Origin: an uncultured Eubacteriaceae bacterium
Lineage (GTDB): Bacteria; Bacillota; Clostridia; Eubacteriales; Eubacteriaceae
Direction: 5' to 3'
Length of the DNA: 11,322 nt
NCBI GenBank assembly: GCA_947625175.1
Contig: CANQNI010000038.1
Location: forward strand, 1 to 11,322
The translations under genes and the position numbers were made by a program. The notes beneath the pieces were generated by a model, which worked only from the letters and a program-made list of their open reading frames with translations, was not told the origin of the DNA and ran no database searches. Shown one piece after another: positions 1 through 11,322 of this stretch (positions are counted from its first letter, which is position 1; every line of letters starts with the position of its first letter).

Positions 1-36
1 GTTAAAAAAAACTCCCTGGAATATTTAGAGACTTAA
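1..36 (+). CDS. possible 3' end of an upstream gene (partial)
   Basis: The first twelve codons are open from the window edge and end at a TAA (34-36), giving VKKNSLEYLET. The stop sits inside the ribosome binding region of the small terminase gene, which is the spacing expected for the tail of a co-transcribed head-module gene. Too little is present to identify it. It could equally be non-coding. Confidence 0.3.
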   Translation, partial: VKKNSLEYLET

Positions 37-42
37 GGGGAT

Positions 43-378
43 ATGTTTGAAGATATGGAATTTAAGAAAAAGTTAGATAAACTTCTCAATTTAATTGATG
101 AAGAATGTAAACCTATAGCAGAATCAATTATCCAGGAATTAAATTTCACAATTAAATTACTGGATGAATTAAGAAATAGAATAGATGAAGAAGGGGCTAT
201 TGTCTTATATAAAAACGGTTCTCAAGAAACTTTTAGACAATCTCCCGCTTTCAAAGGCTATTATACTTTAATTCCTAAATTTAACGCTTTAATAAAAGAG
301 CTGATTGATTTAATTCCTAAAACCTCTCAAGAATCTTCATTCAATGAACTAAGAGGATTTATGGATGAATACAAATAA
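43..378 (+). CDS. terS: terminase small subunit, P27-like
   Basis: 111-residue protein that would recognise the element's packaging site and load the large terminase onto its DNA. It is predominantly helical, and the region from about residue 48 (GAIVLYKNGSQETFRQSPAF, then a long helix ending in LIDLIP) follows the layout of P27-family small terminases: an I-V/EYKNG strand, then a P-rich turn and a helical C-terminus. Size is normal for the family. The gene overlaps the large terminase by 14 bp, the canonical terS-terL arrangement. An AAGGGG ribosome binding sequence (35-40) lies only 2 nt from the ATG at 43. A second ATG at 55 is somewhat too far (14 nt), so the exact start is uncertain by four residues. 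Identification rests on fold-like pattern and position; sequence similarity alone would be weak. Confidence 0.8.
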   Translation: MFEDMEFKKKLDKLLNLIDEECKPIAESIIQELNFTIKLLDELRNRIDEEGAIVLYKNGSQETFRQSPAFKGYYTLIPKFNALIKELIDLIPKTSQESSFNELRGFMDEYK

Positions 379-2017
379 TTATATTCTAGAATATTATAAC
401 CAGATAAAGAGCGGTAATATAAAAACCTCTCAACGAGTTAAACAGATTTACCAGAAACTTGTTGAGGATCTTGAAGATAATTCAACTTATATCTTTGATG
501 TGAAAAGAGCTAATAAACCTATTGAGTTTATTGAACGATTTTGTAAACACTCTAAAGGAGAATTAGGCGGTCAAAATATTAAGCTGGAATTATTTCAGAA
601 GGCTTTTATATCCGCTCTTTTTGGTTTTATTAATAAAGAAACTGGATTAAGAAAATACAGACAGGCTTTTTTTGAAGTAGCTCGGAAAAATGGTAAAAGT
701 ACCATGCTAGCTGGTTTAGCTTTATATATGTTAATAGCTGATAATGAAAAAGGTTCAGAAGTTTATTCTATTGCTACTAAGAAAGATCAAGCTTCTATTA
801 TTTTTGATATTACTCTTAACATGGTAAAGCAATCTGAAGTATTAGCTAGAGCTACTATTAAGAAAAGAAGTTATTTAAGTTGTCCTCTTAATTTTGGTAA
901 ATTTGAACCATTGGGAAAAAACTCACAAACTCTAGATGGTGTTAATGCCCACTGTGTTATCCTGGATGAATTGCACGCTGTGAAAGACAGGAATTTATAT
1001 GAAGTAATGGTTCAATCTATGGCTTCTAGAAGTCAACCATTATTTATTATGATTACTACCGCTGGAACTACCAGGGAAAATATATTTGATGATATTTACA
1101 ATTATTCTTGTAATATTCTGGATGGAAAAGTTAAGGATGAATCTTTTTTACCTATCATTTATGAACTGGATGAAAAAGAAGAATGGAAAAATCCAGAATG
1201 TTGGATAAAAGCTAATCCAGGACTTGGAACAATAAAAAAGTATGAAGATTTAGAAATAAAGGTTAATAAGGCTAAACAGAATCCATCCGATATAACAGGG
1301 CTTTTAACTAAAGATTTTAATATTCAGGAAAACGAAGTTAATTCCTGGTTAGATTTAGAAGATATTATTAATGAAAAAGAATTTAATATAACCGATTTTA
1401 AAGGCTCTTATTTTATCGGCGGTGTAGATTTATCAAGCGTAAATGATTTAACCTGTGCTACCGCTTTAATGATTGATAAAGAAACAGAAGAAAAATTTGT
1501 TTATCAAATGTATTGGCTACCAGAAGCTAGATTAGAGGATCATATAAAATCTGATAACGTCCCTTATGATATTTGGATTAAAAGAGGATTCTTAAAAGTT
1601 TGTAAAGGTAATAAAGTTGATTATCATGATGTTTCTCAATGGTTTTTGGATTTAGTCAAACTAACAGGAATCAATCCGTTTAAGATATATTATGATCCGT
1701 GGCATGCTGGATACTGGGATAAGGAGATGAAGAATTTAGGTTTTAACCTGGTTGAATGTAGACAAGGTTTTAAAACATTATCCTCTCCTATGAAAGTTTT
1801 AGAATCCGATTTAAAGGCTAAACAGGTTAATTATAATAATAATCCTATTCTTAAATGGTGTTTAGCTAATACGGATTATAAATGTGATGAGAATGAAAAT
1901 ATTAGACCTGTTAAAATGAGAAATCCTAATAAACGAATTGATGGAATGGCTTCATTACTTAACGCTTATGTAGGACTTCAAAAAGACTATGAAGAATTTA
2001 GAAGGCTGGGAAAATGA
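365..2017 (+). CDS. terL: terminase large subunit (ATPase-nuclease)
   Basis: 550-residue packaging motor of the Terminase_1 (HK97/P27-partner) type. It pumps DNA into the procapsid through the portal and cuts it. The N-terminal ATPase shows a Walker A variant ARKNGKS at residues 106-112 and a Walker B with catalytic acid VILDE at 198-202, followed by the ITTAG coupling motif. The C-terminal RNase H-like nuclease shows three spaced acids: D355 in GGVDLSS, D444 in YYDPWH and D526 in DGMASL. Length is usual for the family and nothing is truncated. The ATG at 365 has an AGAGGA ribosome binding site 7 nt upstream, inside the end of terS. The stop overlaps the next ATG (ATGA), indicating translational coupling. 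Confidence 0.95.
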   Translation: MNTNNYILEYYNQIKSGNIKTSQRVKQIYQKLVEDLEDNSTYIFDVKRANKPIEFIERFCKHSKGELGGQNIKLELFQKAFISALFGFINKETGLRKYRQAFFEVARKNGKSTMLAGLALYMLIADNEKGSEVYSIATKKDQASIIFDITLNMVKQSEVLARATIKKRSYLSCPLNFGKFEPLGKNSQTLDGVNAHCVILDELHAVKDRNLYEVMVQSMASRSQPLFIMITTAGTTRENIFDDIYNYSCNILDGKVKDESFLPIIYELDEKEEWKNPECWIKANPGLGTIKKYEDLEIKVNKAKQNPSDITGLLTKDFNIQENEVNSWLDLEDIINEKEFNITDFKGSYFIGGVDLSSVNDLTCATALMIDKETEEKFVYQMYWLPEARLEDHIKSDNVPYDIWIKRGFLKVCKGNKVDYHDVSQWFLDLVKLTGINPFKIYYDPWHAGYWDKEMKNLGFNLVECRQGFKTLSSPMKVLESDLKAKQVNYNNNPILKWCLANTDYKCDENENIRPVKMRNPNKRIDGMASLLNAYVGLQKDYEEFRRLGK

Positions 2018-2349
2018 GTAGAGATATTAAAGATAAGAAGATAGAAATATTTTATGATGCTGGAAAAATAAATAAGTTAGGTGAAAACACTCATAACTGG
2101 ATTAGTAGAGGAAAATATTGGGCATATTCTAGAATGCTCTCAATGCGAGAATTTAGAGAATATGGTATGGATACTCACGAAATAGACAGACTTTTTATTT
2201 TAAATTACCATGAAGAAATAAAACCATCCGATCATATTATTTACCAGGAAAAAGAATTTGAAATTTATTCTATTGATACTCTGAATGATAATAAACAGGA
2301 TATGAAAGTTTATGTTACTAATGTTAAACCTCGGAGAATTGGTGTTTAG
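2014..2349 (+). CDS. head-tail adaptor (head closure) protein
   Basis: 111-residue protein resembling the phage head-tail joining family (PF05521; SPP1 gp16/HK97 gp7-like). These proteins form a ring under the portal and close the filled head so that a tail can attach. Supporting pattern: a beta-rich small protein with an aromatic N-terminal segment, WAYSRMLSMREF around residues 36-47, a SDHIIYQEKEFEIYSID segment near 72-88 that matches the family's 'D.i.y.gk.y.I..i' strand pair, and a final strand with basic residues. The start overlaps the terL stop by 4 bp, with AGAAGG 8 nt upstream. It is the last gene of the packaging operon before the att-like region. If the element is a satellite, this is the surface a helper-phage tail would dock onto. 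Confidence 0.72.
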   Translation: MSRDIKDKKIEIFYDAGKINKLGENTHNWISRGKYWAYSRMLSMREFREYGMDTHEIDRLFILNYHEEIKPSDHIIYQEKEFEIYSIDTLNDNKQDMKVYVTNVKPRRIGV

Positions 2350-2353
2350 AAAT

Positions 2354-2372
2354 TGGGCTTAATTTGGACTTA
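2354..2372 (+). repeat. 19-bp direct repeat, copy 1 (putative integrase arm site)
   Basis: TGGGCTTAATTTGGACTTA occurs perfectly here and again at 2532-2550, framing the att-like segment. Each copy holds two related half-units (TGGGCTTA and TGGACTTA) about one helical turn apart. Paired direct repeats flanking an attachment core are what the N-terminal arm-binding domain of Tn916/lambda-type integrases binds. That role is inferred. Confidence 0.7.
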
Positions 2373-2470
2373 AGAAAAAATAAACGATACGAAAATAACA
2401 AAATTTAAAAAATTAAAGATGATTATAATGTTATTTGTTAATTTAAAAATAAACAAAATAGCTGAATTTG

Positions 2471-2487
2471 TCTCTGAGGGTCCACCA
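2471..2487 (+). other. putative attP core resembling a tRNA 3' end
   Basis: TCTCTGAGGGTCCACCA reads like the 3' end of a tRNA: a 5-nt T-stem strand CTCTG, a 7-nt acceptor strand AGGGTCC, discriminator A and CCA. In this reading position 70 is U, as in the G3-U70 pair of tRNA-Ala. An intrinsic terminator follows 14 nt later, as it would behind a real tRNA gene. No T-loop or anticodon arm precedes it, so it is a fragment and not a tRNA gene. Many integrases recombine at such 3' ends. The exact crossover and target tRNA are inference. Confidence 0.45.
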
Positions 2488-2501
2488 ATTAAGACAATAA
2501 C

Positions 2502-2524
2502 GCCCGTAGTTACGGGCTTTTTTT
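2502..2524 (+). terminator. intrinsic terminator of the packaging operon
   Basis: Stem GCCCGTA (2502-2508) pairs with TACGGGC (2511-2517) and is followed by seven T residues. It would end + strand transcription from the terminase/adaptor operon before the convergent integrase gene. It may instead be the terminator of the tRNA gene whose 3' end seems to form the att core. There is no T-run on the minus strand, so it acts in one direction. Confidence 0.85.
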
Positions 2525-2531
2525 ATTTCTC

Positions 2532-2550
2532 TGGGCTTAATTTGGACTTA
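2532..2550 (+). repeat. 19-bp direct repeat, copy 2 (putative integrase arm site)
   Basis: Second perfect copy of TGGGCTTAATTTGGACTTA, abutting the integrase stop codon at 2551-2553. The centre-to-centre distance to copy 1 is 178 bp. Confidence 0.7.
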
Positions 2551-3606
2551 TTAAAATATTTCTTCAAATTCATTAATTAATTCTAATTGCTGTGAAGGAT
2601 ATAAATGTGAATAAGTATCTAATGTTTCTTTAACGCTGGAATGTCCTAATCTTTCAGCAACCATTAAAATATTTTTACCTCTATTAATTAAAAAAGAAGC
2701 GTGAGAATGTCTTAAATCATGCAATCTAATTGGCTTAATATTATATTCCTCACAAACTTTTTTTAATTCTCTTAAATAAGTTTGTTCAGCTAATTTAAAA
2801 ATAAATTCATCTTCTTTAAAATCGTAATAATGGCTGGTAAATTCCAGAATTTCGTTAGCTAACTTTCTTGAAATAGTTATATTTCTTTTACTGGAAAAAG
2901 TTTTAGGTTCAGTAATATAAATTTTCCCATTTCTCTTATGAAAAGTTTTAGTAACTTTGATCTGAGGAATACTAAAATCTATATCATTTAAAGTTAATGC
3001 TTTTAATTCTCCTATTCTCATTCCAGTTTGATATAATGTTTCAAAGGCAATTTTATATTGGGGTTTATCTATGTGGCTGATAAACTCCTTATATTCCTCT
3101 AAAGTCCAGAAGTTAATTTCATTCCTTTTAGTTGAACCAATAGAACCAGCTTTAAGACAAGGATTTTCTTTTAATCCATAAAATTTAATAGCATGATTAA
3201 AAATACTAGAAAGAATTTTGTTAATTTTATTCTTATAAGTATCTCCTAAATTATTATCATTTAAAACTTTGTGCCACTTTTTAATATCTTGATATGTAAT
3301 TTCATCTAATGGCTTATTGCCTAAATATGGAATTATCCATAAATTAATCTTACTTTTATTTGAATATAGTGATGATTCTTTCCAATTTTCTTTATTGTCA
3401 TTATAAAAAACCTTAACAAACTCTTTTAATAACATTGAAGGACTACCAGAATGCTCATTAATGTAGTTTGTTTCAAATTCAATAGCTTCTTTTCTGGTTT
3501 TAAAACCTCTTTTTTTAATTTGTTTTCCATTACAGTAAAAACGACTTATCCAGGTTACTTTTTTCTTTCCAGATTTTAATATTCTTTCATCTTTATAAGC
3601 AGGCAT
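2551..3606 (-). CDS. int: tyrosine site-specific integrase
   Basis: 351-residue phage/island integrase that would insert and excise the element at attP/attB. The N-terminus (about residues 1-50) has the AP2-like arm-DNA-binding pattern: I.RF.cNGKQ.KKRGFKTRKEAIEFE. A SAM-like core-binding domain follows (about 58-155). The catalytic domain shows R197 in TGMRIGEL, H296 and R299 in HDLRHSH, H322 in LGHSS and the nucleophile Y332 in TLDTYSH. All expected residues are present and length is full. The start ATG at 3604-3606 has GAGGAG a few bases upstream. Its stop touches direct-repeat copy 2, so the gene lies immediately beside its probable attachment site. It is transcribed together with, or just after, the repressor gene. 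Confidence 0.95.
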   Translation of the reverse strand: MPAYKDERILKSGKKKVTWISRFYCNGKQIKKRGFKTRKEAIEFETNYINEHSGSPSMLLKEFVKVFYNDNKENWKESSLYSNKSKINLWIIPYLGNKPLDEITYQDIKKWHKVLNDNNLGDTYKNKINKILSSIFNHAIKFYGLKENPCLKAGSIGSTKRNEINFWTLEEYKEFISHIDKPQYKIAFETLYQTGMRIGELKALTLNDIDFSIPQIKVTKTFHKRNGKIYITEPKTFSSKRNITISRKLANEILEFTSHYYDFKEDEFIFKLAEQTYLRELKKVCEEYNIKPIRLHDLRHSHASFLINRGKNILMVAERLGHSSVKETLDTYSHLYPSQQLELINEFEEIF

Positions 3607-3620
3607 AATAACTCCTCTAT

Positions 3621-3653
3621 TAGTAATTTAGAGCTCACTAAATTAGATTACTA
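3621..3653. repeat. inverted repeat in the integrase leader
   Basis: TAGTAAT (3621-3627) and ATTACTA (3647-3653) form a perfect 7-bp inverted repeat just upstream of the integrase ribosome binding site, with an inner TTAG/CTAA pair. It could be a regulator site or an RNA stem controlling integrase. The 99-bp gap between int and the repressor holds no clear promoter and nothing else I recognise. Confidence 0.35.
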
Positions 3654-3705
3654 GGGTAATATCTAAACTATTCTTTTTGATTTTCTTCTTTCTTTTCTAG
3701 TTATT

Positions 3706-4266
3706 CTAGATATTCTTTAAGTTATCTATTAATTGTTCATTTATTATCATTCTAATAGTTTTGGTTTTTTCTTCTAGATTCAAACATTTTTCTAATAAAA
3801 GTCTTAAAGATTCAATAGAAATTTTAACTTTAGATATTTTACTTTCTAACTGGTTTATTTCTATAACTTGATTTAATATTTCTTTTAAATAGTCTAGATG
3901 ATTATTGATAATCTCAACTATAGATTTTCTTATTTGAGGATCATTGATTTTATCAATTTCTTTTAATAAATCTTCAAAATTATCTAAAATAGGTTTTAAT
4001 TCTTCTAGATAGTTATAGTTATCATTAAAATATAAATAATCTAATTCATTTACTTCTTTATTAGAAATTTCAGAGTTTAAATCAATTAATTTATTAATGT
4101 TTAAATCTAGAACTTTAGCAATTTTTTTTAATTTATCTTTTCTTGGTTTTACCTTGTTTGATTCGTATCTTTGGATATTCCTTATATCTGTTTCAACTAA
4201 TGTAGCTAATTCTTTCTGGGTAAAACCTTTATTTTTTCTAGCTTTTTTTAAAATATCACCTAACAT
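3706..4266 (-). CDS. HTH master repressor with coiled-coil C-terminus (Stl-like role)
   Basis: 186-residue DNA-binding repressor. Residues 1-62 are an HTH_3 (XRE/Cro-CI type) domain: LKKARKNKGFTQKELATLV, then the recognition segment ETDIRNIQRYESNKVKP. The remaining 120 residues are rich in Leu, Ile, Glu and Lys and look like long helices or coiled coil. There is no LexA/CI S24 peptidase domain (no Ala-Gly cleavage site or Ser/Lys dyad in view), so RecA-driven self-cleavage is not expected. It is divergent from the AlpA/rep operon and faces an array of TGTCGTAA-type sites that overlap both promoters, so it probably represses the lytic side and itself. SaPI Stl-type repressors likewise lack a peptidase and are lifted by helper-phage proteins. 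That parallel is inference. The start has AAAGGAA upstream; the stop is TAG. Confidence 0.85.
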   Translation of the reverse strand: MLGDILKKARKNKGFTQKELATLVETDIRNIQRYESNKVKPRKDKLKKIAKVLDLNINKLIDLNSEISNKEVNELDYLYFNDNYNYLEELKPILDNFEDLLKEIDKINDPQIRKSIVEIINNHLDYLKEILNQVIEINQLESKISKVKISIESLRLLLEKCLNLEEKTKTIRMIINEQLIDNLKNI

Positions 4267-4296
4267 AAAAATTCCTTTTATTAATTTCGTATGATT

Positions 4297-4325
4297 ATTC
4301 TACTAAATGTCGTAAAAAATAACAA
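4297..4325 (-). promoter_or_regulatory. repressor/integrase promoter
   Basis: On the minus strand, TTGTTA (4325-4320) and TAGAAT (4302-4297) are separated by 17 bp, about 30 bp upstream of the repressor ATG. One copy of the putative operator (4308-4316) lies in the spacer, which fits autoregulation. Confidence 0.65.
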
Positions 4326-4425
4326 TAATAAAGTTGACAGCGACATTATAATTATTTTATAATGTTGTCGTAAATAATATTTCGAACGTATATATTTACG
4401 ACTTTTTAAAAATTTATGTCGTAAG
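4308..4425. promoter_or_regulatory. operator array, five TGTCGTAA-type sites
   Basis: Related sites occur at 4308-4316 (TGTCGTAAA, +), 4340-4346 (minus, ATGTCGC), 4366-4374 (TGTCGTAAA, +), 4395-4402 (minus, GTCGTAAA) and 4417-4425 (TGTCGTAAG, +). The first lies in the repressor promoter. The second and third lie just inside the -35 and just after the -10 of the rightward promoter. The fifth overlaps the ribosome binding site of the next gene. I did not find the motif near the late promoter. These are probably binding sites of the adjacent HTH repressor, perhaps also of the AlpA-like protein. Confidence 0.75.
4334..4363 (+). promoter_or_regulatory. rightward early promoter, consensus sigma-A
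   Basis: Perfect TTGACA (4334-4339) and TATAAT (4358-4363) boxes with an 18-bp spacer. They drive the AlpA-like gene and rep. An inverted repeat, ACATTATAA (4343-4351) and TTATAATGT (4357-4365), spans the spacer and -10, and operator copies flank both boxes. So strong a promoter would be expected to be tightly repressed. Confidence 0.88.
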
Positions 4426-4435
4426 GAGGTGAAAA

Positions 4436-4618
4436 ATGGGCGTTGTACTTGATGTTAATGATGTTTGTAAAATTCTGAAAAGAAAACCGACTTATTGCTA
4501 CAAAGTAATAAGAGATTTAAATGCAGAATTAAAGAACGACGGTTATTACATTAATGAAGGTCGAATTCCAGCTAAATACTTCTATCAACGTATGGGCTTG
4601 GAATATGAAGAAAATTGA
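4436..4618 (+). CDS. small AlpA/Xis-like HTH DNA-binding protein
   Basis: 60-residue protein with an N-terminal winged-helix/MerR-like HTH of the HTH_17 kind: VNDVCKILKRKPTYCYKVIRDLN at residues 7-29, then a basic GRIPAKYFYQRMG wing/helix resembling excisionases and AlpA-type activators. It is the first gene of the rightward operon, 10-11 bp after an ideal AAGGAGG ribosome binding site (4423-4429) that itself overlaps an operator copy. In PICIs a protein in this position acts as Xis and/or activator. By analogy it may bend DNA at attP for excision or activate the downstream operon. Which of the two cannot be told from sequence. Confidence 0.7.
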   Translation: MGVVLDVNDVCKILKRKPTYCYKVIRDLNAELKNDGYYINEGRIPAKYFYQRMGLEYEEN

Positions 4619-4665
4619 TAAAAGGTTAGAGTATATTTTTGAATAAATAGGAGGTTAGAAAAAAC

Positions 4666-4674
4666 ATGAAATAG
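4666..4674 (+). promoter_or_regulatory. two-codon minigene (ATG AAA TAG) in the rep leader
   Basis: A perfect AGGAGG (4649-4654) sits 11 nt before ATG-AAA-TAG. The TAG overlaps the AGGAG (4673-4677) that serves the rep TTG start at 4691. Ribosomes would initiate, make Met-Lys and terminate next to the rep ribosome binding site. This is likely a translational throttle or coupling device, or the scar of a lost gene start. Confidence 0.4.
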
Positions 4675-4690
4675 GAGAAGTGAGACTAAA

Positions 4691-7054
4691 TTGAAATATA
4701 CGGTTATAGATAATATCAAAACAAAAATTAACGTTTTAGAATATGCTAAAAGTGTTGGATTACCAGTAGAAAAAGCTGGTGATCGAACAAAGTCATTTAT
4801 TGATCCAGGTAATAATAATTCCTGTGTAATTTATTTTTCAAATTGGTGGTATGATCATAAAACTCAACAAGGCGGAGATGTTATTGATCTTTGTTCTAAG
4901 TTTGAATTTAACGGAGATAAATCTAAAGCTCTTCAATCGTTAAAAAATCGTTTAAATATTGAAGATACTTTTAATTCTGAAAAATTTAGGAATTATAAAG
5001 CGGATTTAAATAATAATTTTAATCAATGGCATTCTCAATTAATAAATAATCCAGAAGCTTTAAATTACTTTTACAGTAGAAATATTACCGATCAAACTAT
5101 TAAGGATTTACAGTTAGGACTACAAAAAAACGGCAATATTGTTATTCCTTATTTTAAAGATAATAAACCAGTTTATTTTATTAGGCGTAAATTAAAAGAA
5201 AAGCAATTTAAAAAAGCTAGTAAAAAGTATTATCCAGAGCATATTATTTGGGGTTTAAATACTTTAGATAGAAAAGCCCCTCTAGTAATAACTGAAGGAG
5301 TTTTTGATGCCCTTTCGTTATATCAAGAAGGGTTTAAAGTTTTATCAAGTATGGGCGGTCATTTTTCCAAAGCTCAAATAAAAGAAGTTATTCAAATATG
5401 TAAAACTTTTGAGAATGTTTATTTAGCTTTTGATAATGATAAACCAGGTCAAGAATTTACCTGGTATTTAGCTCAAAAATTAATAAAAAATAATATTTCT
5501 TTTAATGTTATTAATATACCCGAAAAGTATAATTCAACTCCTATTAAAGATATTAATGATTACTATAAAGTATCTCATGAACTAAATTCTTTATTAGAAA
5601 ACAATTCTATTGATGATTTAACTTATATAGCTAATTATTTTAAAGGTAAAAAAGAAGAATTTACTGATTTTTGCTACAAACTAGCTAGAATTAAACCAGA
5701 AGAAGATATTAATTATTTATTAGATGTAGTTGATAGAGAAGGGATATTTGATTCTGATTGGATTAAGGAATTTAGAAGAAAAGTAACTAAATATCCCCCT
5801 CAAAATATAGTTGCTAAAGAAATACTAAAAGAATATGAACTAGTTTATAATGAAAAATTTGTTTTTTATCGCTTCAATGGTTCAATCTGGGAACAAAAAA
5901 CTGAAACAGATATAAAACATTTAATTGATAAAAAACTTGGAAATTTTTCAACTAATAATTTAATTACTGGGGTTCTAGGACTGGTTAAAAGTAAATGTAA
6001 TAAAAACGTTGAATTTAATAAAAAGAATGTTTTAACTTTTAAAAATGGCGTTTTAGATTTAGATTCTGATAAATTGAGGGATTTTAATAAACTGGATTAT
6101 TCAACAATTCAATTAGATTATGAATATAATCCAGAAGCTCAATGTCCTAAATTTAAAAAGTTTATTAAAGATATTACTGATTCAGATATAGATAAAGCTA
6201 AACTAATTCAAGAAGTTTTAGGTTATATTCTTTTTCCAAATAATTCATTACATGAAGCTTTTTTCTTTATTGGCAATGGTGGTAATGGAAAAAGTGTTTT
6301 ATTAAAAATTATTGAAGCTTTATTTAATATAGAAAATATTAGTCATGTTCAAATTGACGGTTTTACTAACGATTTTCAAAGAATTAGATTAAAAGATTCT
6401 TTAGTAAATATTCAGTATGATTATAAAAAACCTAATAAAAAAGCTCAATATTTTAATCCAGATCAATATTTTAAAGCTATTGTAGCTGGTGATCCAATTA
6501 ATGGATGCTTTAAAAATAGAGATTTTATTGATTTTACTTCTAGAGCTAAAATTTTTATAAGTGCTAATGAAATGCTTAATATTAGTGATTCCAGCGATGG
6601 AATGAAAAGAAGATTAATATTTATTAATTTTCCAATTAAATTCGTAAATGATCCCGTTAAATCTTATGAAAAGAAAAACGATCCAGAATTATTTAATAAA
6701 CTACTGGAAGAATTACCTGGAATATTTAACTGGGTTTATAACGGCTATAAAAGATTAAAAAAGAATGAAAAATTTACCGAAACTTCAGAACAAAAAATCT
6801 TAATGGAAGAATTTTTATCTGATAACGATCCGATAATTGATTTTATTAATTCTTATGATTTTGATAAAGAACTTCAATTTACTAATGAAGGAATGTATCT
6901 AATTTTCAAAGAATGGGCTGGAAAAAATCAGATAAAGGTTGAATATACTCAAAGACAATTTAGCAGAAGGTTTAAAAGTCCTTTTTTAGAAAGATATCCT
7001 AATTGGAATAATAACTATAAGAACAATGGTAAAAAAGGTTTTAAACGGGACTAA
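4691..7054 (+). CDS. replication protein: TOPRIM primase fused to SF3 (D5-type) helicase
   Basis: 787-residue initiator that would prime and unwind the element's own origin. Residues 1-90 resemble the DnaG zinc-binding fold (INVLEYAKSVGL ... YDHKTQQGGDVIDLCSKF) but lack the CHC2 cysteine/histidine set. A TOPRIM domain follows, with E202 in TEGVFDAL, D248 and D250 in DNDKPG, and KDINDYY at 286-292. After a linker comes a D5_N-like region (about 370-500) and an SF3 AAA+ helicase. The helicase has Walker A GNGGNGKS at 528-535, the LVNIQYDY segment in the Walker B position, the sensor SANE at 624-627 and an arginine-finger-like GMKRRL. The C-terminus (about 730-787) is basic and winged-helix-like, suited to iteron binding. 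The start is TTG at 4691 (AGGAG 13 nt upstream). The stop lies inside the first iteron of the origin. It resembles the primase-helicases of PICIs and small phages. Confidence 0.92.
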   Translation: MKYTVIDNIKTKINVLEYAKSVGLPVEKAGDRTKSFIDPGNNNSCVIYFSNWWYDHKTQQGGDVIDLCSKFEFNGDKSKALQSLKNRLNIEDTFNSEKFRNYKADLNNNFNQWHSQLINNPEALNYFYSRNITDQTIKDLQLGLQKNGNIVIPYFKDNKPVYFIRRKLKEKQFKKASKKYYPEHIIWGLNTLDRKAPLVITEGVFDALSLYQEGFKVLSSMGGHFSKAQIKEVIQICKTFENVYLAFDNDKPGQEFTWYLAQKLIKNNISFNVINIPEKYNSTPIKDINDYYKVSHELNSLLENNSIDDLTYIANYFKGKKEEFTDFCYKLARIKPEEDINYLLDVVDREGIFDSDWIKEFRRKVTKYPPQNIVAKEILKEYELVYNEKFVFYRFNGSIWEQKTETDIKHLIDKKLGNFSTNNLITGVLGLVKSKCNKNVEFNKKNVLTFKNGVLDLDSDKLRDFNKLDYSTIQLDYEYNPEAQCPKFKKFIKDITDSDIDKAKLIQEVLGYILFPNNSLHEAFFFIGNGGNGKSVLLKIIEALFNIENISHVQIDGFTNDFQRIRLKDSLVNIQYDYKKPNKKAQYFNPDQYFKAIVAGDPINGCFKNRDFIDFTSRAKIFISANEMLNISDSSDGMKRRLIFINFPIKFVNDPVKSYEKKNDPELFNKLLEELPGIFNWVYNGYKRLKKNEKFTETSEQKILMEEFLSDNDPIIDFINSYDFDKELQFTNEGMYLIFKEWAGKNQIKVEYTQRQFSRRFKSPFLERYPNWNNNYKNNGKKGFKRD

Positions 7055-7328
7055 ACACGGGATTAATTAAGTCCCGTTTAAAAAAAATTAATAATTATAG
7101 AAGAATTAAGCAATAAATTCTTCTATTAACGGGACTAAACAATTAAAAACGGGGCTTTTACGGGACTTAAAAAAATAGAATTAGTCCCGTTAAAAAGTTA
7201 GATAATTACTGAATAAATTCACGTTTACGGGACTAATACCTAATTTTTTTTAAATTATTTAGATAGTAAAAAAATTAAAAATTAAAAAATATAAAAGCTA
7301 ATATAGAAAACTATAAAGTTAGTCCCGT
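7039..7328. other. iteron replication origin (ori)
   Basis: Nine copies of an ACGGGACT-type 8-mer occur in 290 bp. Plus-strand copies are at 7045, 7057 (variant ACGGGATT), 7129, 7149 (variant ACGGGGCT), 7160 and 7227. Minus-strand copies start at 7070, 7183 and 7321. Copies 1 and 3 form a 14-bp perfect inverted repeat (7039-7052/7070-7083) that begins inside the end of rep. The stretch 7236-7320 is almost only A and T and separates eight copies from the last one, a good candidate DNA-unwinding element. Iterons directly behind a primase-helicase gene, flanking an AT-rich stretch, match the SaPI/PICI origin plan. Function is inferred. Confidence 0.82.
7097..7126. repeat. 11-bp inverted repeat within the origin
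   Basis: ATAGAAGAATT (7097-7107) and AATTCTTCTAT (7116-7126) pair perfectly around an 8-nt loop, between iterons 3 and 4. It may be a single-strand hairpin used in initiation or a protein-binding dyad. No T-run follows, so it is not a terminator. Confidence 0.6.
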
Positions 7329-7350
7329 TGCACTAAATAAGGAGTTTAAA

Positions 7351-7533
7351 ATGTTTGAAGAAGTTTTAGATGCTCTGGATAATCTAACAGACTATATTAA
7401 TCAAGAAGATATTGGTAATGGTTTATATACAGGTCGATTGAATTGTGCTAGAAATTTGATAATAGATATTAAATCGGAATTTAATGCTAGAAATAATTTA
7501 GCTCTAGAAAGTAGGAATAAATATTATGGATAA
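7351..7533 (+). CDS. small acidic protein, unknown function (1st of four)
   Basis: 60 residues, helical and acidic at the N-terminus (MFEEVLDALDNLTDYINQED), with a central GLYTGRLNCARNLIIDI segment. I do not recognise a family. AAGGAG (7339-7344) lies 6 nt before the ATG, so the start is well supported. It is the first gene after the origin, and the last iteron ends 22 bp upstream of its start codon. Genes in this slot in phage satellites are often modulators of replication, of the helper or of capsid assembly. Nothing in the sequence shows which. Confidence 0.7.
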   Translation: MFEEVLDALDNLTDYINQEDIGNGLYTGRLNCARNLIIDIKSEFNARNNLALESRNKYYG

Positions 7534-7780
7534 CAAATTTTTAAAAGATGTCTTAAATAAAATATTTCTTGATACTCAAGTAGTTGAATATGAAGATATT
7601 GATAAAGTAGTTACTGATATTCCAAAAGAATTGGCAAAATCAGAATTACCTATTCAAATTGTTAATTATTCCATTATGACAGCTAAAAGCGGTTTTGAAG
7701 CTGGTGTAGATACCATTTTACTTTTAATGAATCAAGAACCAGTGTTTAATAAAGAAATTAAAAATATCAAATTTTTCTAA
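7526..7780 (+). CDS. small protein, unknown function (2nd of four)
   Basis: 84 residues, no recognised domain. The middle (residues 46-69) carries NYSIMTAKSGFEAGVDTILLLMNQ, whose GFxxGxxxIL core resembles the third protein of the cluster. No signal peptide; the LLLM stretch is too short for a membrane span. The ATG overlaps the end of the previous gene by 8 bp with AGGA 9 nt upstream, indicating coupled translation. Confidence 0.7.
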   Translation: MDNKFLKDVLNKIFLDTQVVEYEDIDKVVTDIPKELAKSELPIQIVNYSIMTAKSGFEAGVDTILLLMNQEPVFNKEIKNIKFF

Positions 7781-7791
7781 AGGAGAAAAAA

Positions 7792-7980
7792 ATGACTTAT
7801 TTAAAATTAGAAGATATTAAAAATGAAGGAAATAGTATTCCAGAAATATATCGATTAACACTTCAAGAATGTTTTGATGTCAATGATAGTACTAACGAAC
7901 TACTGGAAAAATTTATTAAGATTTATAATTTAGGTTTTCATAGAGGAGCTCAATATATTTTAGATGAATATAACCTATAA
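7792..7980 (+). CDS. small acidic protein, unknown function (3rd of four)
   Basis: 62 residues, acidic, probably two or three helices. The C-terminal NLGFHRGAQYILDEYN (residues 46-61) shares GFxxGxxxIL with the preceding protein, suggesting distant paralogy. AAAGGAG lies 6 nt before the ATG. The next gene's AAAGGAG overlaps this stop, so the four genes form one operon. Confidence 0.7.
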   Translation: MTYLKLEDIKNEGNSIPEIYRLTLQECFDVNDSTNELLEKFIKIYNLGFHRGAQYILDEYNL

Positions 7981-7991
7981 AGGAGTTGAAG

Positions 7992-8213
7992 ATGAGTGAA
8001 CAAAATATAATCTATTCTATTGATGATTTAATTCAAAAAGAAAAATATAATCGTTACAGTGTAATTATTGAATTTGAAAAACTAATAAATTTAATTCAGT
8101 TTGAAGATTATAAAATTACTAATTCAAGAAAGATTTTAGAATTATTAACCGATCTTAATGAAGAATTAACAAAACAAAGAAGTCAATATTTGTTTAATAA
8201 ATTAAATAATTAA
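7992..8213 (+). CDS. small helical protein, unknown function (4th of four)
   Basis: 73 residues if started at ATG 7992, which sits 6 nt after AAAGGAG (7979-7985). An in-frame TTG at 7986 touches the ribosome binding site and is an unlikely start. The protein is almost wholly helical (IQKEKYNRYSVIIEFEKLINLI, then LLTDLNEELTKQRSQYLFNKL) and may form a helical hairpin or coiled coil. No family recognised. It ends the operon; terminator structures follow at once. Confidence 0.68.
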   Translation: MSEQNIIYSIDDLIQKEKYNRYSVIIEFEKLINLIQFEDYKITNSRKILELLTDLNEELTKQRSQYLFNKLNN

Positions 8214-8241
8214 AAAAAGAGCTGGTTTAATTCCAGCTCTT
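8211..8241 (-). terminator. hairpin behind the small-gene operon, terminator for leftward transcripts
   Basis: AAGAGCTGG (8217-8225) pairs with CCAGCTCTT (8233-8241) over a 7-nt loop. On the minus strand the stem is followed by a T-run (the A-run at 8212-8218), so it works best for leftward transcription. On the plus strand only TT follows, so readthrough to the next terminator is likely. Confidence 0.7.
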
Positions 8242-8285
8242 AACCAGTAACTTTTAATTACCTGGGAAAAATAATTATTTACCCT

Positions 8286-8315
8286 AAACCGCTTTTTTAT
8301 TAAGGCGGTTTTTTT
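8286..8315 (+). terminator. intrinsic terminator of the replication/small-gene operon
   Basis: AAACCGC (8286-8292) pairs with GCGGTTT (8305-8311) and runs into seven T residues (8309-8315). It separates the early operon from the head genes, which then need their own promoter. Confidence 0.8.
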
Positions 8316-8325
8316 ATTACCCAAT

Positions 8326-8344
8326 TTACTTCTAATAGAAGTAA
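8326..8344. repeat. perfect 9-bp-arm palindrome
   Basis: TTACTTCTA (8326-8334) and TAGAAGTAA (8336-8344) flank a single base. The near-zero loop argues against an RNA hairpin and suggests a dimeric protein-binding site. No partner is identifiable. Confidence 0.55.
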
Positions 8345-8395
8345 TACCATCCGTTCTATCAACCAATACTAAAAGAGACATTGTTATTTTATCAC

Positions 8396-8422
8396 AAAAA
8401 AACCACTCCTAAAAAGAAGTGG
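8396..8422 (-). terminator. intrinsic terminator, leftward
   Basis: On the minus strand CCACTTC and GGAGTGG form a 7-bp stem (8403-8422 in window coordinates, one G-T pair) followed by seven T residues (A-run 8396-8402). It would stop transcripts coming from the leftward promoter near 9007-9035. Confidence 0.75.
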
Positions 8423-8452
8423 CTGAAGAGTATTTGTTTAACTATTTGATTA

Positions 8453-8509
8453 GAAAAAACAAACGGAAAAGTTGATCAGGCTCTTAAACATTATATTAAA
8501 AACTTTTAA
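8453..8509 (+). pseudogene. possible gene remnant (C-terminal fragment)
   Basis: After a TGA at 8447, the frame from 8450 reads LEKTNGKVDQALKHYIKNF and ends at TAA 8507. The composition looks like a helical phage protein tail, but there is no start codon or ribosome binding site and no family match that I recognise. Could be chance. Confidence 0.25.
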
Positions 8510-8546
8510 GTTTTTTAATATCAAACTAAAACCGCCTAAAGGCGGT
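8493..8546. repeat. two adjacent hairpins
   Basis: ATATTAAAAACTT (8493-8505) pairs with AAGTTTTTTAATAT (8508-8521) with one bulged T. ACCGCC (8531-8536) pairs with GGCGGT (8541-8546) over a TAAA loop. The second is followed on the minus strand by TTTAGTTT and may be a weak leftward terminator. Its stem sequence echoes that of the + terminator at 8286. Confidence 0.55.
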
Positions 8547-8624
8547 AAGTATATTTTTGAATTAAATAGGTTAGCAAATTAATAAATTAATTACCTCTTC
8601 TTCTAATATAGAGAAGGAGAAAAG

Positions 8625-8687
8625 ATGGAAAAAGAAGTAAGAGAGATTAAAGAAGAAATTGATGTCAGTAAAGATATTCTGTTTTAA
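8625..8687 (+). CDS. 20-residue ORF with strong ribosome binding site
   Basis: MEKEVREIKEEIDVSKDILF, highly charged and helical, preceded by AGAAGGAGA at the right distance. It is either the surviving start of a decayed gene or a very small peptide gene. No promoter is obvious upstream. The frame closes with TAA at 8685. Confidence 0.35.
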   Translation: MEKEVREIKEEIDVSKDILF

Positions 8688-8780
8688 TCCTCTGAAATAT
8701 TTATCAACCGCTAATGAAAATATGAGAAGCTTTATCGCTTTCTTTCTCATTAACATTTAACACTTACTTTTGCACAGGAT

Positions 8781-8894
8781 ATGGTTAAAGGTGACTACAC
8801 TTTAGAAGCTAAAGTATTAGACGGTAAGACTATAAATGTATAAATCAGTAAAGAAAACATTAAACAAAGAATGAAGAAGCTGGTTAAAACTTAA
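8781..8894 (+). pseudogene. gene remnant with internal stop
   Basis: The frame reads MVKGDYTLEAKVLDGKTINV, a TAA at 8841-8843, then ISKENIKQRMKKLVKT and a second TAA at 8892. The two parts look like one continuous protein segment broken by a TAT-to-TAA type change. The open frame extends upstream to 8754 (HLTLTFAQD), again without a start or ribosome binding site. Family not recognised. Probably a decayed accessory gene. Confidence 0.4.
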
Positions 8895-9006
8895 CTAACT
8901 CCTATTAAATTTAAATACAAAATGAATAGACAAGCCAGGTTCTAGAACAAATTATATTCAAAATTCTTTACTTCAAAATTTTCACTCCTTTCAATTCATT
9001 ACTACT

Positions 9007-9035
9007 ATTATATCATAAATATTGATAAGTGTAAA
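9007..9035 (-). promoter_or_regulatory. leftward promoter, divergent from the head operon
   Basis: On the minus strand TTTACA (9035-9030) and TATAAT (9012-9007) are 17 bp apart. A GAAAGGAGTG ribosome-binding-like sequence follows (8992-8983), but the frames behind it close within a few codons. Its product would thus be a decayed gene or a non-coding RNA ending at the leftward terminators. Confidence 0.6.
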
Positions 9036-9050
9036 CTTTTATTGTATAAT
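9022..9050 (+). promoter_or_regulatory. late promoter of the portal-protease-capsid operon
   Basis: TTGATA (9022-9027) and TATAAT (9045-9050) are separated by 17 bp, about 35 bp before the portal ATG. It interleaves with the leftward promoter, so the two cannot both be occupied at once. No TGTCGTAA operator is present. The early operon has ended at the terminator near 8286, so this is the likely start of head-gene expression. Confidence 0.78.
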
Positions 9051-9084
9051 ATAATTAAGATATTTTCAAGAACAATTAACAAAC

Positions 9085-10236
9085 ATGAGTATAATTCCAA
9101 TAGAAATAGATAACAAGATAATTAATTCATTTAATACCTGGGATGGGAATGCTTATTCTAATGCTATTTTTAGAAGTGCAGTGGATGCTATTGCTAGGAA
9201 TATTGGAAAATTAAGAGGAGCTCATTATATTACCGATTCTAATAACAATAAATTTGAAAGAGATCAAAAACTAAATAGAATCCTACAGATTGAACCTAAT
9301 CCGTTAATCTCCTCTTATGATCTTCTATATAAAATAGCTACTCATTACTATCTCTACAATAATGCCTTTATCCTGGTTGATTTTGATAATAACCATAATA
9401 TTCAAGGTTTATATCCTATTGACGCTGTGCAGGCTCAAGTATTAAGTGATTCCAGAAATAATATTTATATCGCTTTTAGACTTAAGAACGGAAAAGAATT
9501 TACTTTCAGATATAGTGATGTAATTCATTTAAAACGCCACTTCAATAATAATTTATTATTTGGTGATTCCAATGATCCTATCAATCTAACTTTAGATGTT
9601 TCTAATAAACAGAATGAAGGATTAATAAATTCTATTGAAAGTAGCGCCACTATTAGAGGTGTGATTACTACTACACAAATTTTAAATAATGATGATTTAC
9701 TTGAATTAAAAGATTTATTTAAAGAAAACTATTTAAGTGTTCAAAATGATGGTGGTGTAATAGTAACCGATCAAAGAATGGAATATATCCCACTGGAAAC
9801 TAAACCAGCTACTATTGATGAAAATCAATTAAATGCTGTGAAGAATAGTATTTATAGTTATCTGGGCGTTACTCAATCCATAGTTAATAGTAGCTATACA
9901 GAAAATGAATGGGCTAGTTTTTATGAAGGTGTGATAGAACCTTTTGCCACTCAATTATCTTTAGAATTTACCAGGAAAATATTTACAGAAAGAGAAATAG
10001 CTCATGGAAATTCAATTCAATTTGATGCAGGGCGCTTAATGTTTGCGAGTGCTAATACTAAATTAAATCTAATAAGATCAATGATCCCGTCAGGACTTCT
10101 AACTATTAACGAGGCTAGAGAAATACTTAATTTATCTCCTATTGAAGGAGAAGAAGGTAATAAACGCTTTATTTCACTGAATAATATTGATTCTGAAATA
10201 ATGCAGGATTACCAGAAAAATAAGAGTGAACAATAA
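9085..10236 (+). CDS. portal protein, HK97 family
   Basis: 383-residue portal that forms the dodecameric ring at the head vertex through which TerL pumps DNA. It has the family's opening pattern GNAYSNAIFRSAVDAIARN (residues 21-39) and the mid-protein YLYNNAFILVDFD and VIHLKRHF strands. The C-terminal signature starts at about 263 (TQSIVNSSYTENEWASFYEG, then VIEPFATQLSLEFTR). Length is at the compact end of the usual range. No convincing ribosome binding site precedes the ATG at 9085 (CAAGAACAATTAACAAAC); in-frame codons upstream meet a stop at 9052, so no better upstream start exists. The stop overlaps the protease ATG (TAATG). Here the portal does not directly follow terL, as it would in most phages. 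Confidence 0.93.
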   Translation: MSIIPIEIDNKIINSFNTWDGNAYSNAIFRSAVDAIARNIGKLRGAHYITDSNNNKFERDQKLNRILQIEPNPLISSYDLLYKIATHYYLYNNAFILVDFDNNHNIQGLYPIDAVQAQVLSDSRNNIYIAFRLKNGKEFTFRYSDVIHLKRHFNNNLLFGDSNDPINLTLDVSNKQNEGLINSIESSATIRGVITTTQILNNDDLLELKDLFKENYLSVQNDGGVIVTDQRMEYIPLETKPATIDENQLNAVKNSIYSYLGVTQSIVNSSYTENEWASFYEGVIEPFATQLSLEFTRKIFTEREIAHGNSIQFDAGRLMFASANTKLNLIRSMIPSGLLTINEAREILNLSPIEGEEGNKRFISLNNIDSEIMQDYQKNKSEQ

Positions 10237-10790
10237 TGAAGGAAATAAGAAATTTTAAGATAGATACTTCAGATAATGAATTAATCCTAAATGGTTTGGC
10301 TATTGTTTATGATAAACCTACTACTATTAAAAATGAGGATGGTTCAGAATTCGTAGAAATAATTCAATCTGGGGCTTTAGATGAAGCGGATATATCAGAT
10401 TGTAGATTACTTTATAACCATGATTCCAATCATATACCTTTAGCAAGAACGCCAAAAACAATGAAGTTGAATAAATGCTCGGCAGGGCTTAAATTTCAAG
10501 CTTCATTAACAGAAGAGAACAAAAACGTTTATACGGCAGTAAAACGAGGTGATCTAAATGGATGTAGCTTTGCTTTTACTATTCCAGAAGGTGGAGATAC
10601 TTATGATGTGAAAACAAATACCAGGACAATTAAAAAAATTGCTAAGATTTATGAATTGTCAGTAGTACCTTTTCCAGCTTATGAACAAACAAGCGTAGAA
10701 GCAAGAAGTGCTATTAGTAATCAAAAAAAGGATTATATGTTAAGGAATAAATTAAAAATTAAAATCAATAAAATATTATTTAAAGGATGA
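10236..10790 (+). CDS. prohead maturation protease, HK97 family (U35)
   Basis: 184-residue serine protease that trims the capsid protein's N-terminal scaffold domain and itself during head maturation. Catalytic landmarks are H62 in LLYNHDS, S111 in RGDLNGCSFAF and E140 in IYELSVVPFPAYEQT, all in the family's order and spacing. The N-terminus ELILNGLAIVYDKPT and the SGALDEA stretch are typical. The last 30 residues are basic and probably a scaffold-binding or self-cleaved tail. The start overlaps the portal stop by one base, indicating coupling. The capsid gene follows after 4 bp. Confidence 0.94.
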   Translation: MKEIRNFKIDTSDNELILNGLAIVYDKPTTIKNEDGSEFVEIIQSGALDEADISDCRLLYNHDSNHIPLARTPKTMKLNKCSAGLKFQASLTEENKNVYTAVKRGDLNGCSFAFTIPEGGDTYDVKTNTRTIKKIAKIYELSVVPFPAYEQTSVEARSAISNQKKDYMLRNKLKIKINKILFKG

Positions 10791-10794
10791 GATT

Positions 10795-11322
10795 ATGAAA
10801 TTTGAAAATGTTAATGAATCATTTAATTACTGGAATAAAAGAAGTAAATCAGAAATACTAACCAGAAGCGCTGAAATTAAGGGCTTAATTGATAATGATC
10901 CAGAAGCTGACGTAATGGCTCTTAATATCGAAATTGATGGTATTAATCAAGTATTAGCTAATAAAGCTGAAAAGGAACAAGCTCAAGAAGAAACTGAACA
11001 AACTCAAGAAAGAGCTTTAAATCCGATTACTGGAATTAATTTTGATACTGTTCAAGCTGAAAATCCAGAAAATGTATTAGATACTAAAATTTACCGTAAT
11101 GCTTTCTTTAAGAATCTTTTAGGGCGTGATATGTCCTTAAAAGAAAAAGCGGTTTTCAGACAGGCTCAAGAAGAATTTAGAGCTAATGAATTTAATTCTT
11201 CAACTAATTCAAGTGCTATATTACCTACTGAAACTTTAAATGAAGTTATCAGTAAAGCCCGTCAAGAAGGCGGTTTAATGAGTGTAGCTAGAGCTTTTAG
11301 TATTCCATCTAATATAGCTATT
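10795..11322 (+). CDS. major capsid protein, HK97 fold (partial, 3' end beyond window)
   Basis: 176 codons are present and the frame is open at the window edge. Residues 1-75 are charged and helical with Gln/Glu-rich runs (KAEKEQAQEETEQTQERA), the delta/scaffold domain expected of PF05065 proteins that lack a separate scaffold. Residues 95-175 begin the mature shell: YRNAFFKNLLGRDMS, then a Ser/Asn-rich linker and SAILPTETLNEVISKARQEGG (from residue 140), matching the family's conserved 'lvP......i......' N-arm. AAAGGA (10782-10787) precedes the ATG. Processing by the adjacent protease probably falls between the helical region and residue 140. The family's usual length suggests that roughly half is missing. 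Confidence 0.9.
   Translation, partial: MKFENVNESFNYWNKRSKSEILTRSAEIKGLIDNDPEADVMALNIEIDGINQVLANKAEKEQAQEETEQTQERALNPITGINFDTVQAENPENVLDTKIYRNAFFKNLLGRDMSLKEKAVFRQAQEEFRANEFNSSTNSSAILPTETLNEVISKARQEGGLMSVARAFSIPSNIAI

Follow-up and report, generated by a model that had tools for sequence, protein, structure and literature searches.

The window, an 11,322-nucleotide stretch of DNA, is the entire contig C38 of a metagenome-assembled genome (MAG; G000, 1.6 Mb, 238 contigs, 84% complete) of an uncultured Eubacteriaceae bacterium. It carries an integrase, a divergently oriented repressor, a small excisionase (Xis)-like protein, a primase-helicase, four small genes and a set of phage head and packaging genes (Table 1). 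We interpret the element as a capsid-forming phage satellite of the type of the capsid-forming phage-inducible chromosomal islands (cf-PICIs), assembled in a circular, concatemeric or tandem form, and we assign this interpretation a probability of about 0.86. The left end of the contig lies 42 bases 5' of the gene for the small terminase subunit (terS), and the right end truncates the capsid gene after 176 codons; the other main open reading frames (ORFs) are open throughout. The two ends were searched for an overlap and share none, and closure of the contig into a circle was therefore rejected.

Pfam and PHROGs scans covered 16 of the 24 ORFs of the window. Seven of the other eight mostly overlap larger genes, and the remaining one (2419-2580, 53 aa) falls within the attachment (att) region. 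The scans bear out the gene list of a first-pass annotation of this DNA, more weakly for terS and the AlpA/Xis-like protein. That annotation had seen no tail or lysis gene, and none of these families occurs among the PHROG matches of the 16 scanned ORFs (E up to 1; 11,322 bases). The small genes that it had assigned to no family are likewise without a credible match in Pfam, PHROGs or PADLOC, the latter matching the repressor only. An Rfam search of the window returned nothing at gathering scores. Between the small ORFs and the portal gene lie about 870 bp (8214-9084) without a credible gene, holding five terminator-like hairpin entries, two of which are one hairpin on both strands.

Table 1. 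Features of the window, and short recombinase genes of related elements (last row)
Feature	Position	Strand	Evidence
small terminase subunit-like protein, 111 aa	43..378	+	phrog_1066 (unnamed) 9.4e-21; phrog_2343 'terminase small subunit' 2.7e-5; directly precedes terL
large terminase subunit, terL	365..2017	+	TerL_ATPase 1.3e-34, TerL_nuclease 9.7e-41; phrog_9 6.9e-160
head completion/head-closure protein (Hc1-like)	2014..2349	+	Phage_HCP 3.8e-6; phrog_25 7.6e-6
19-bp direct repeat, copy 1, proposed integrase arm-type site	2354..2372	+	exact repeat
attP core, 18 bases, resembling 3' end of tRNA-Met(CAT) gene with CCA	2470..2487	+	matches in sibling genomes
terminator-like hairpin adjoining attP core	2502..2517	+	hairpin search
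19-bp direct repeat, copy 2, proposed arm-type site	2532..2550	+	abuts stop codon of integrase gene
tyrosine integrase	2551..3606	-	Phage_integrase (PF00589) 5.5e-24, Arm-DNA-bind_4 6.9e-8
helix-turn-helix (HTH) repressor without peptidase domain (Stl-like by position)	3706..4266	-	HTH_3 5.4e-12
divergent control region, four GTCGTAA sites (operator candidates)	4308..4424	.	between repressor and Xis-like gene
AlpA/Xis-like small HTH protein (weak)	4436..4618	+	HTH_17 0.017, under its cut-off; phrog_989 (unnamed) 2.2e-13
primase-helicase	4691..7054	+	Toprim_2, D5_N, DUF5906; phrog_864 2.8e-80
iteron cluster, 7x CGGGACT, likely replication origin	7046..7327	.	beside primase
four small ORFs (60, 84, 62, 75 aa)	7351..8213	+	no Pfam/PHROG match better than 0.067
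promoter-like site upstream of head genes (weak)	9022..9050	+	11/12; site class not commoner than in shuffles
portal protein	9085..10236	+	Phage_portal 5.8e-57
prohead maturation protease, S78	10236..10790	+	Peptidase_S78 1.9e-29
HK97-type major capsid protein, first 176 aa, cut by contig end	10795..11322	+	phrog_10 3.5e-8, no Pfam match
short tyrosine recombinase	L232:13509-14087, L233:13421-13999, L234:13305-13883, L029:6869-7417		

The first-pass annotation had described an HK97 head and packaging set. Portal, protease, terL and head-closure protein are confirmed by their profile matches, the capsid is confirmed as an N-terminus, and the terS match is weak. The capsid N-terminus is 50% identical to residues 1-178 of the capsid of a related element (L015), and the full-length capsids of four relatives (414-438 aa, L015 among them) match PF05065. 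For the portal, the best identity is 56% (best 120 of 1638 matches), which indicates that there is no near copy of the element among the matches listed.

The repressor shows HTH domains and no peptidase match in Pfam, in agreement with the peptidase-less repressor proposed earlier. All four window copies of GTCGTAA fall within the divergent control region (largest cluster in shuffled sequences: 2). Amid them lies a promoter (4334-4363, plus strand) with the full sigma-70-type consensus (TTGACA-18-TATAAT, 12/12); promoter-like sites overall are not enriched (35 in the window vs 47.3 in shuffles). The small protein encoded next to this region fits an AlpA/Xis-like role by its position, the family matches themselves being below the cut-off or to an unnamed group. 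The primase-helicase is confirmed by its domains. The iterons adjoining it exceed chance expectation: the window holds seven copies of CGGGACT, a motif chosen after inspecting the window, all of them within the cluster, and 500 Markov shuffles gave a mean total of 0.18 and a largest cluster of 1. The cluster is likely the origin of replication that the first-pass annotation had assigned to the element.

The integrase call is upheld by its PF00589 match, and attP can be proposed next to it. The nearest match of the 18-base core is the exact CCA end of tRNA-Met, with two mismatches in one sibling genome (G001) and one in another (G002). The remaining matches have three mismatches, and a backwards control gave none in G000, none in G001 and two in G002. 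The window contains no complete tRNA. An 18-bp part of the 19-bp direct repeat occurs twice only in the MAG (up to two mismatches). The two repeats were considered as attL and attR and rejected, since the MAG has no further occurrence of this 18-bp part, 178 bp separate the two copies and a complete tRNA is lacking; the tRNA-like core between them therefore fits attP better. Genes of the element flank attP on both sides, whereas an integrated single copy would show chromosome on one side. The contig may thus reflect an excised circle, a concatemer or a tandem array, with mis-assembly as an alternative. The tRNA-Met gene that follows tRNA-Pro in the siblings was not found in the G000 MAG, and neither was an occupied site. 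Contig C49 ends inside a tRNA-Pro gene; this was rejected as evidence of occupancy, as the contig stops before the tRNA-Met. Two other tRNA-Met(CAT) genes, on contig C50, are without the core within three mismatches.

The stretch between capsid and terS can be judged from relatives of the element. Homologs of terL were gathered from IMG/VR and GTDB genomes, two of the searches giving the best 80 loci each. At least 199 loci carry a terL label: 79 are in phage order (portal within five ORFs after terL), 73 are in satellite order (portal and capsid before terL), 42 are undecided, and 5 have terL on the opposite strand only. At least two of the 79 (L074, L201) are a satellite beside a phage. The labels come from profiles grown out of the window proteins, of which the 'prot' profile drifted onto capsids; most satellite proteases are unlabelled, and gene order in the survey relies on portal, capsid, terL and head closure. 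The loci are not independent, as some IMG/VR and GTDB records are identical (e.g. L068 = L133).

In 96 relatives, terL is followed by the head-closure gene and not by the portal gene, and in 74 of these a capsid is matched upstream. The first-pass annotation had regarded a complete set of tail and lysis genes, placed between the capsid gene and terS, as the sign of an ordinary temperate phage. In the relatives, the distance from capsid to terL is 800-2,358 bp in 74 of 74 cases (median 1,182), with no intervening ORF longer than 276 aa. When the head-closure condition is dropped, 88 capsid-terL pairs are obtained, and the sole one above 2.4 kb (L074, 4,997 bp) is measured to the terL of the neighbouring phage. 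An HNH nuclease is encoded in this stretch in L013, L015, L029 and L232, and an Ad1-type connector is matched there in L015, L029 and L232. By arithmetic from L015 and L233, we estimate the missing stretch at about 1.8-2.2 kb and the whole element at about 13.1-13.6 kb. Four elements encode a short tyrosine recombinase (182-192 aa, Table 1) after the HNH gene and before the terminase genes; three of the carriers also have a full-length integrase, and in one none was matched.

Among the relatives, L015, L013, L232, L233 and L234 share a common layout of integrase, repressor, replication gene, portal, protease, capsid, terL and head closure. The first two are contigs of 12.0 and 12.8 kb, and the other three are integrated and come from the same host family. 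A terS gene is labelled in L015, L233 and L234 and unlabelled in L013 and L232; L233 and L234 also have the primase, which in L232 is replaced by a replisome organizer. L232, located in a single-contig genome of the same family (G015), is 12,460 bp long and is flanked by perfect 35-bp repeats at a tRNA-Ser 3' end. Its genes for integrase, repressor, portal, protease, capsid, terL and head closure are ordered as in the window, with connector and HNH between capsid and terL. Ten ORFs of L232 were compared with PHROGs (E up to 0.01): they comprise a regulator, an excisionase-like HTH protein, the replisome organizer, the connector, the HNH nuclease, the recombinase and four unmatched ORFs, with no tail or lysis match among them. 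The flanking repeats of L233 and L234 measure 23 and 20 bp, without a chance control. Terminal repeats of 55-141 bp in eight satellite-class loci fit circles of 12.3-14.1 kb. An element in satellite order was also seen on a 24-kb contig (L067) of a MAG named Desulfovibrio, outside Bacillota, by cross-phylum transfer or mis-binning. In L145 and L147, a second set of integrase, repressor and AlpA-like genes lies at most a few kb past the satellite head module; each of these loci may comprise two adjacent elements.

Phage and satellite classes, assigned by gene order, separate on the terL tree. With 184 rows (73 phage, 111 satellite including the window; eight loci of unclear order and the window copy L009 left out), a single change between the classes is required, with a support of 99 (FastTree). 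The portal tree requires one change with 152 rows and two with 153 rows when L074 is included; L074 was dropped, its nearest portal being that of the neighbouring phage. Reduced terL trees under a mixture model agree (54 rows and 45 rows, chosen and randomly drawn, minus 12 divergent phages and, for the 45-row tree, also minus L066 and L067). A common clade of the window and the same-family elements is neither recovered nor rejected (p-AU 0.39, 45-row tree).

The founding paper on cf-PICIs is reportedly that of Alqurainy et al. from 2023. Published descriptions of gene content, by which we compared the window, list for cf-PICIs a capsid, protease, portal, connectors, both terminases and an HNH nuclease (PMC10690885), together with AlpA and Pri-Rep (PMC10448857). 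Their mean size is given as 14 kb, and Bacillaceae and lactobacilli are named among their hosts (PMC10803314). Like these elements, with EcCIEDL933 as prototype, the window has an integrase with attP, a repressor, a primase of the Pri-Rep type (Toprim + D5_N + DUF5906), a weakly matched AlpA-like protein, portal, protease, head-closure connector, terL, a weak terS and, to judge by the full-length relatives, a PF05065-type capsid; its estimated size is near the published mean. It differs in its host family, Eubacteriaceae. The HNH nuclease and the Ad1 connector are not in the window contig and are found in the corresponding stretch of the relatives. Judged by its genes, the window fits the published cf-PICI descriptions, except that these two features fall in the missing stretch and AlpA is matched weakly.

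SaPI-type PICIs have an integrase, an Stl-like repressor and a primase with an adjoining origin, and this general layout is shared by the window. In contrast to the window, they are described as redirecting the capsid assembly of the helper and as having no capsid set of their own (PMC12409344). The cf-PISPs of Vibrio are capsid-forming and tailless and have a circular form, but are described with ParA and without an integrase (PMC13230959), whereas the window has an integrase and attP, and no ParA match was found among its 16 scanned ORFs. MulchRoom and MiniFlayer of Streptomyces also have head and packaging genes of their own, and MulchRoom particles carry a tail of helper length. They differ by linear genomes with direct terminal repeats, virulent helpers and the lack of an obvious replicase, and are described as showing no significant homology to cf-PICIs beyond a similarity of the portal to predicted PICIs of Actinomycetota (PMC10690885). 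Capsid-forming satellites are thus already known; what is new here is a contig that spans attP, with a candidate helper in the same MAG.

This candidate lies on contig C5, which carries a tailed-phage set in phage order (L051). Its terL is 45-48% and its portal 38% identical to those of the window, and its tail and lysis genes comprise a major tail protein, a tape measure, Dit, a minor tail protein and an endolysin. The C5 phage is possibly a prophage and the helper of the satellite. A third, more distant terL (28%) adjoins a portal gene elsewhere in the MAG (G000:C169:1691-3322), perhaps of a further phage.

Several points weigh against the interpretation as a capsid-forming satellite. The capsid-to-terS stretch is absent from the contig and was not found elsewhere in the MAG (84% complete): a search of the MAG for the missing capsid end returned the window only, and one for HNH returned contig C5 only. 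The terS and Xis-like calls depend on weak matches. No upstream capsid is matched in 22 of the 96 head-closure relatives; in 20 of these the sequence before terL is shorter than 6 kb, and in L160 and L167 an unmatched ORF of 458-500 aa occupies the place of the capsid gene. With L107, these two are the satellite-class loci with at least 6 kb upstream and no capsid match. Flanking repeats were sought in 21 loci, 14 of which showed none (12 of these 14 have a left flank of at most 63 bp), and the shorter repeats carry no chance control. In the terL tree, the window is a long branch that emerges at the base of the satellites, a position for which the tree tool warns of unsure placement. EcCIEDL933 itself is reported not to be detectably mobilised by any of the 17 prophages of its strain (PMC11389934).

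The missing stretch could still hold the tail and lysis genes of an ordinary temperate phage, and an induced phage genome would likewise be assembled across attP, as this contig is. However, relatives in phage order (79 of 199) have the portal soon after terL, where the window has head closure and an att site, the gap is short in all 74 head-closure relatives with a matched capsid, and the terL of the window stands on the satellite side of the tree. We consider a temperate phage improbable. A decayed prophage, stripped of its tail and lysis genes, would account for the many missing phage genes and for the stretch without a credible gene upstream of the portal; yet, the cut capsid gene aside, the main ORFs are intact, the element is assembled in its attP form, and many Bacillota carry this reduced set, on one side of a single branch, a pattern that repeated decay would hardly produce. 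This explanation appears even less probable to us. A self-sufficient tailless virus with another route of entry and no helper would fit the lack of a visible tail gene, but is the least probable of the three, as portal and head-closure protein, whose known role is to join the tail, are retained and no lysis match occurs in the scanned ORFs of the window or L232.

From gene content and published cf-PICIs, we infer that the satellite would make its own heads and take the tails of a helper. The first-pass annotation had proposed this, with lysis by the helper as well; gene content and relatives support it, and the functional steps are given here as a model. The integrase would place the element at the 3' end of a tRNA-Met gene, where the divergent repressor would hold the early promoter shut. 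As this repressor has no self-cleaving domain, a helper-phage protein would presumably lift the repression. Integrase and Xis-like protein would then excise the element, and the primase-helicase would replicate it from the iteron cluster. Heads would be built from portal, protease and capsid and filled by TerS and TerL, together with an HNH nuclease that the missing stretch is predicted to encode. Connector and head-closure proteins would finally accept tails made by the helper, which would also lyse the cell.

ParA is encoded within 6 kb of terL in 26 satellite-type loci. A minus-strand integrase was matched in none of these, with a profile that misses divergent integrases, so that integrase-bearing satellites are undercounted. 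Six ParA loci with terminal repeats (L029, L069, L083, L169, L171, L175) fit circles of 13.5-14.1 kb. By their genes, the ParA loci look like Bacillota counterparts of the cf-PISP satellite-plasmids, for which the description in PMC13230959 reports no relatives found outside Vibrio. Downstream of ParA and 5' of the primase gene, L029 encodes a conserved protein of about 500-600 aa (L029:11816-13624) with homologs in L025 (45% identical), L024 (53%) and L027 (59%). The L029 copy matches nothing in Pfam and nothing credibly in PHROGs; the protein may serve in plasmid replication. The terL of L029 finds its best PLSDB relative, at 49% identity, in Clostridioides plasmids of about 33 kb. The ParA label requires 8 changes on the terL tree, which may be an overcount, since the search for ParA extended 6 kb from terL and many contigs are partial.

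Based on this dataset, we tentatively suggest, at somewhat less than even odds, that the head and packaging module of Bacillota satellites left the phages once, with the window among the earliest branches, and that several moves between islands and ParA-bearing plasmids followed. The separation of satellite and phage heads on a single branch makes the origin of such satellites testable. The element extends capsid-forming satellites to a further family of Bacillota. Its contig apparently represents the mobile form, attP included, and the MAG that yielded it also holds a candidate helper. From the comparison, satellites of this kind appear to be spread over many Bacillota.

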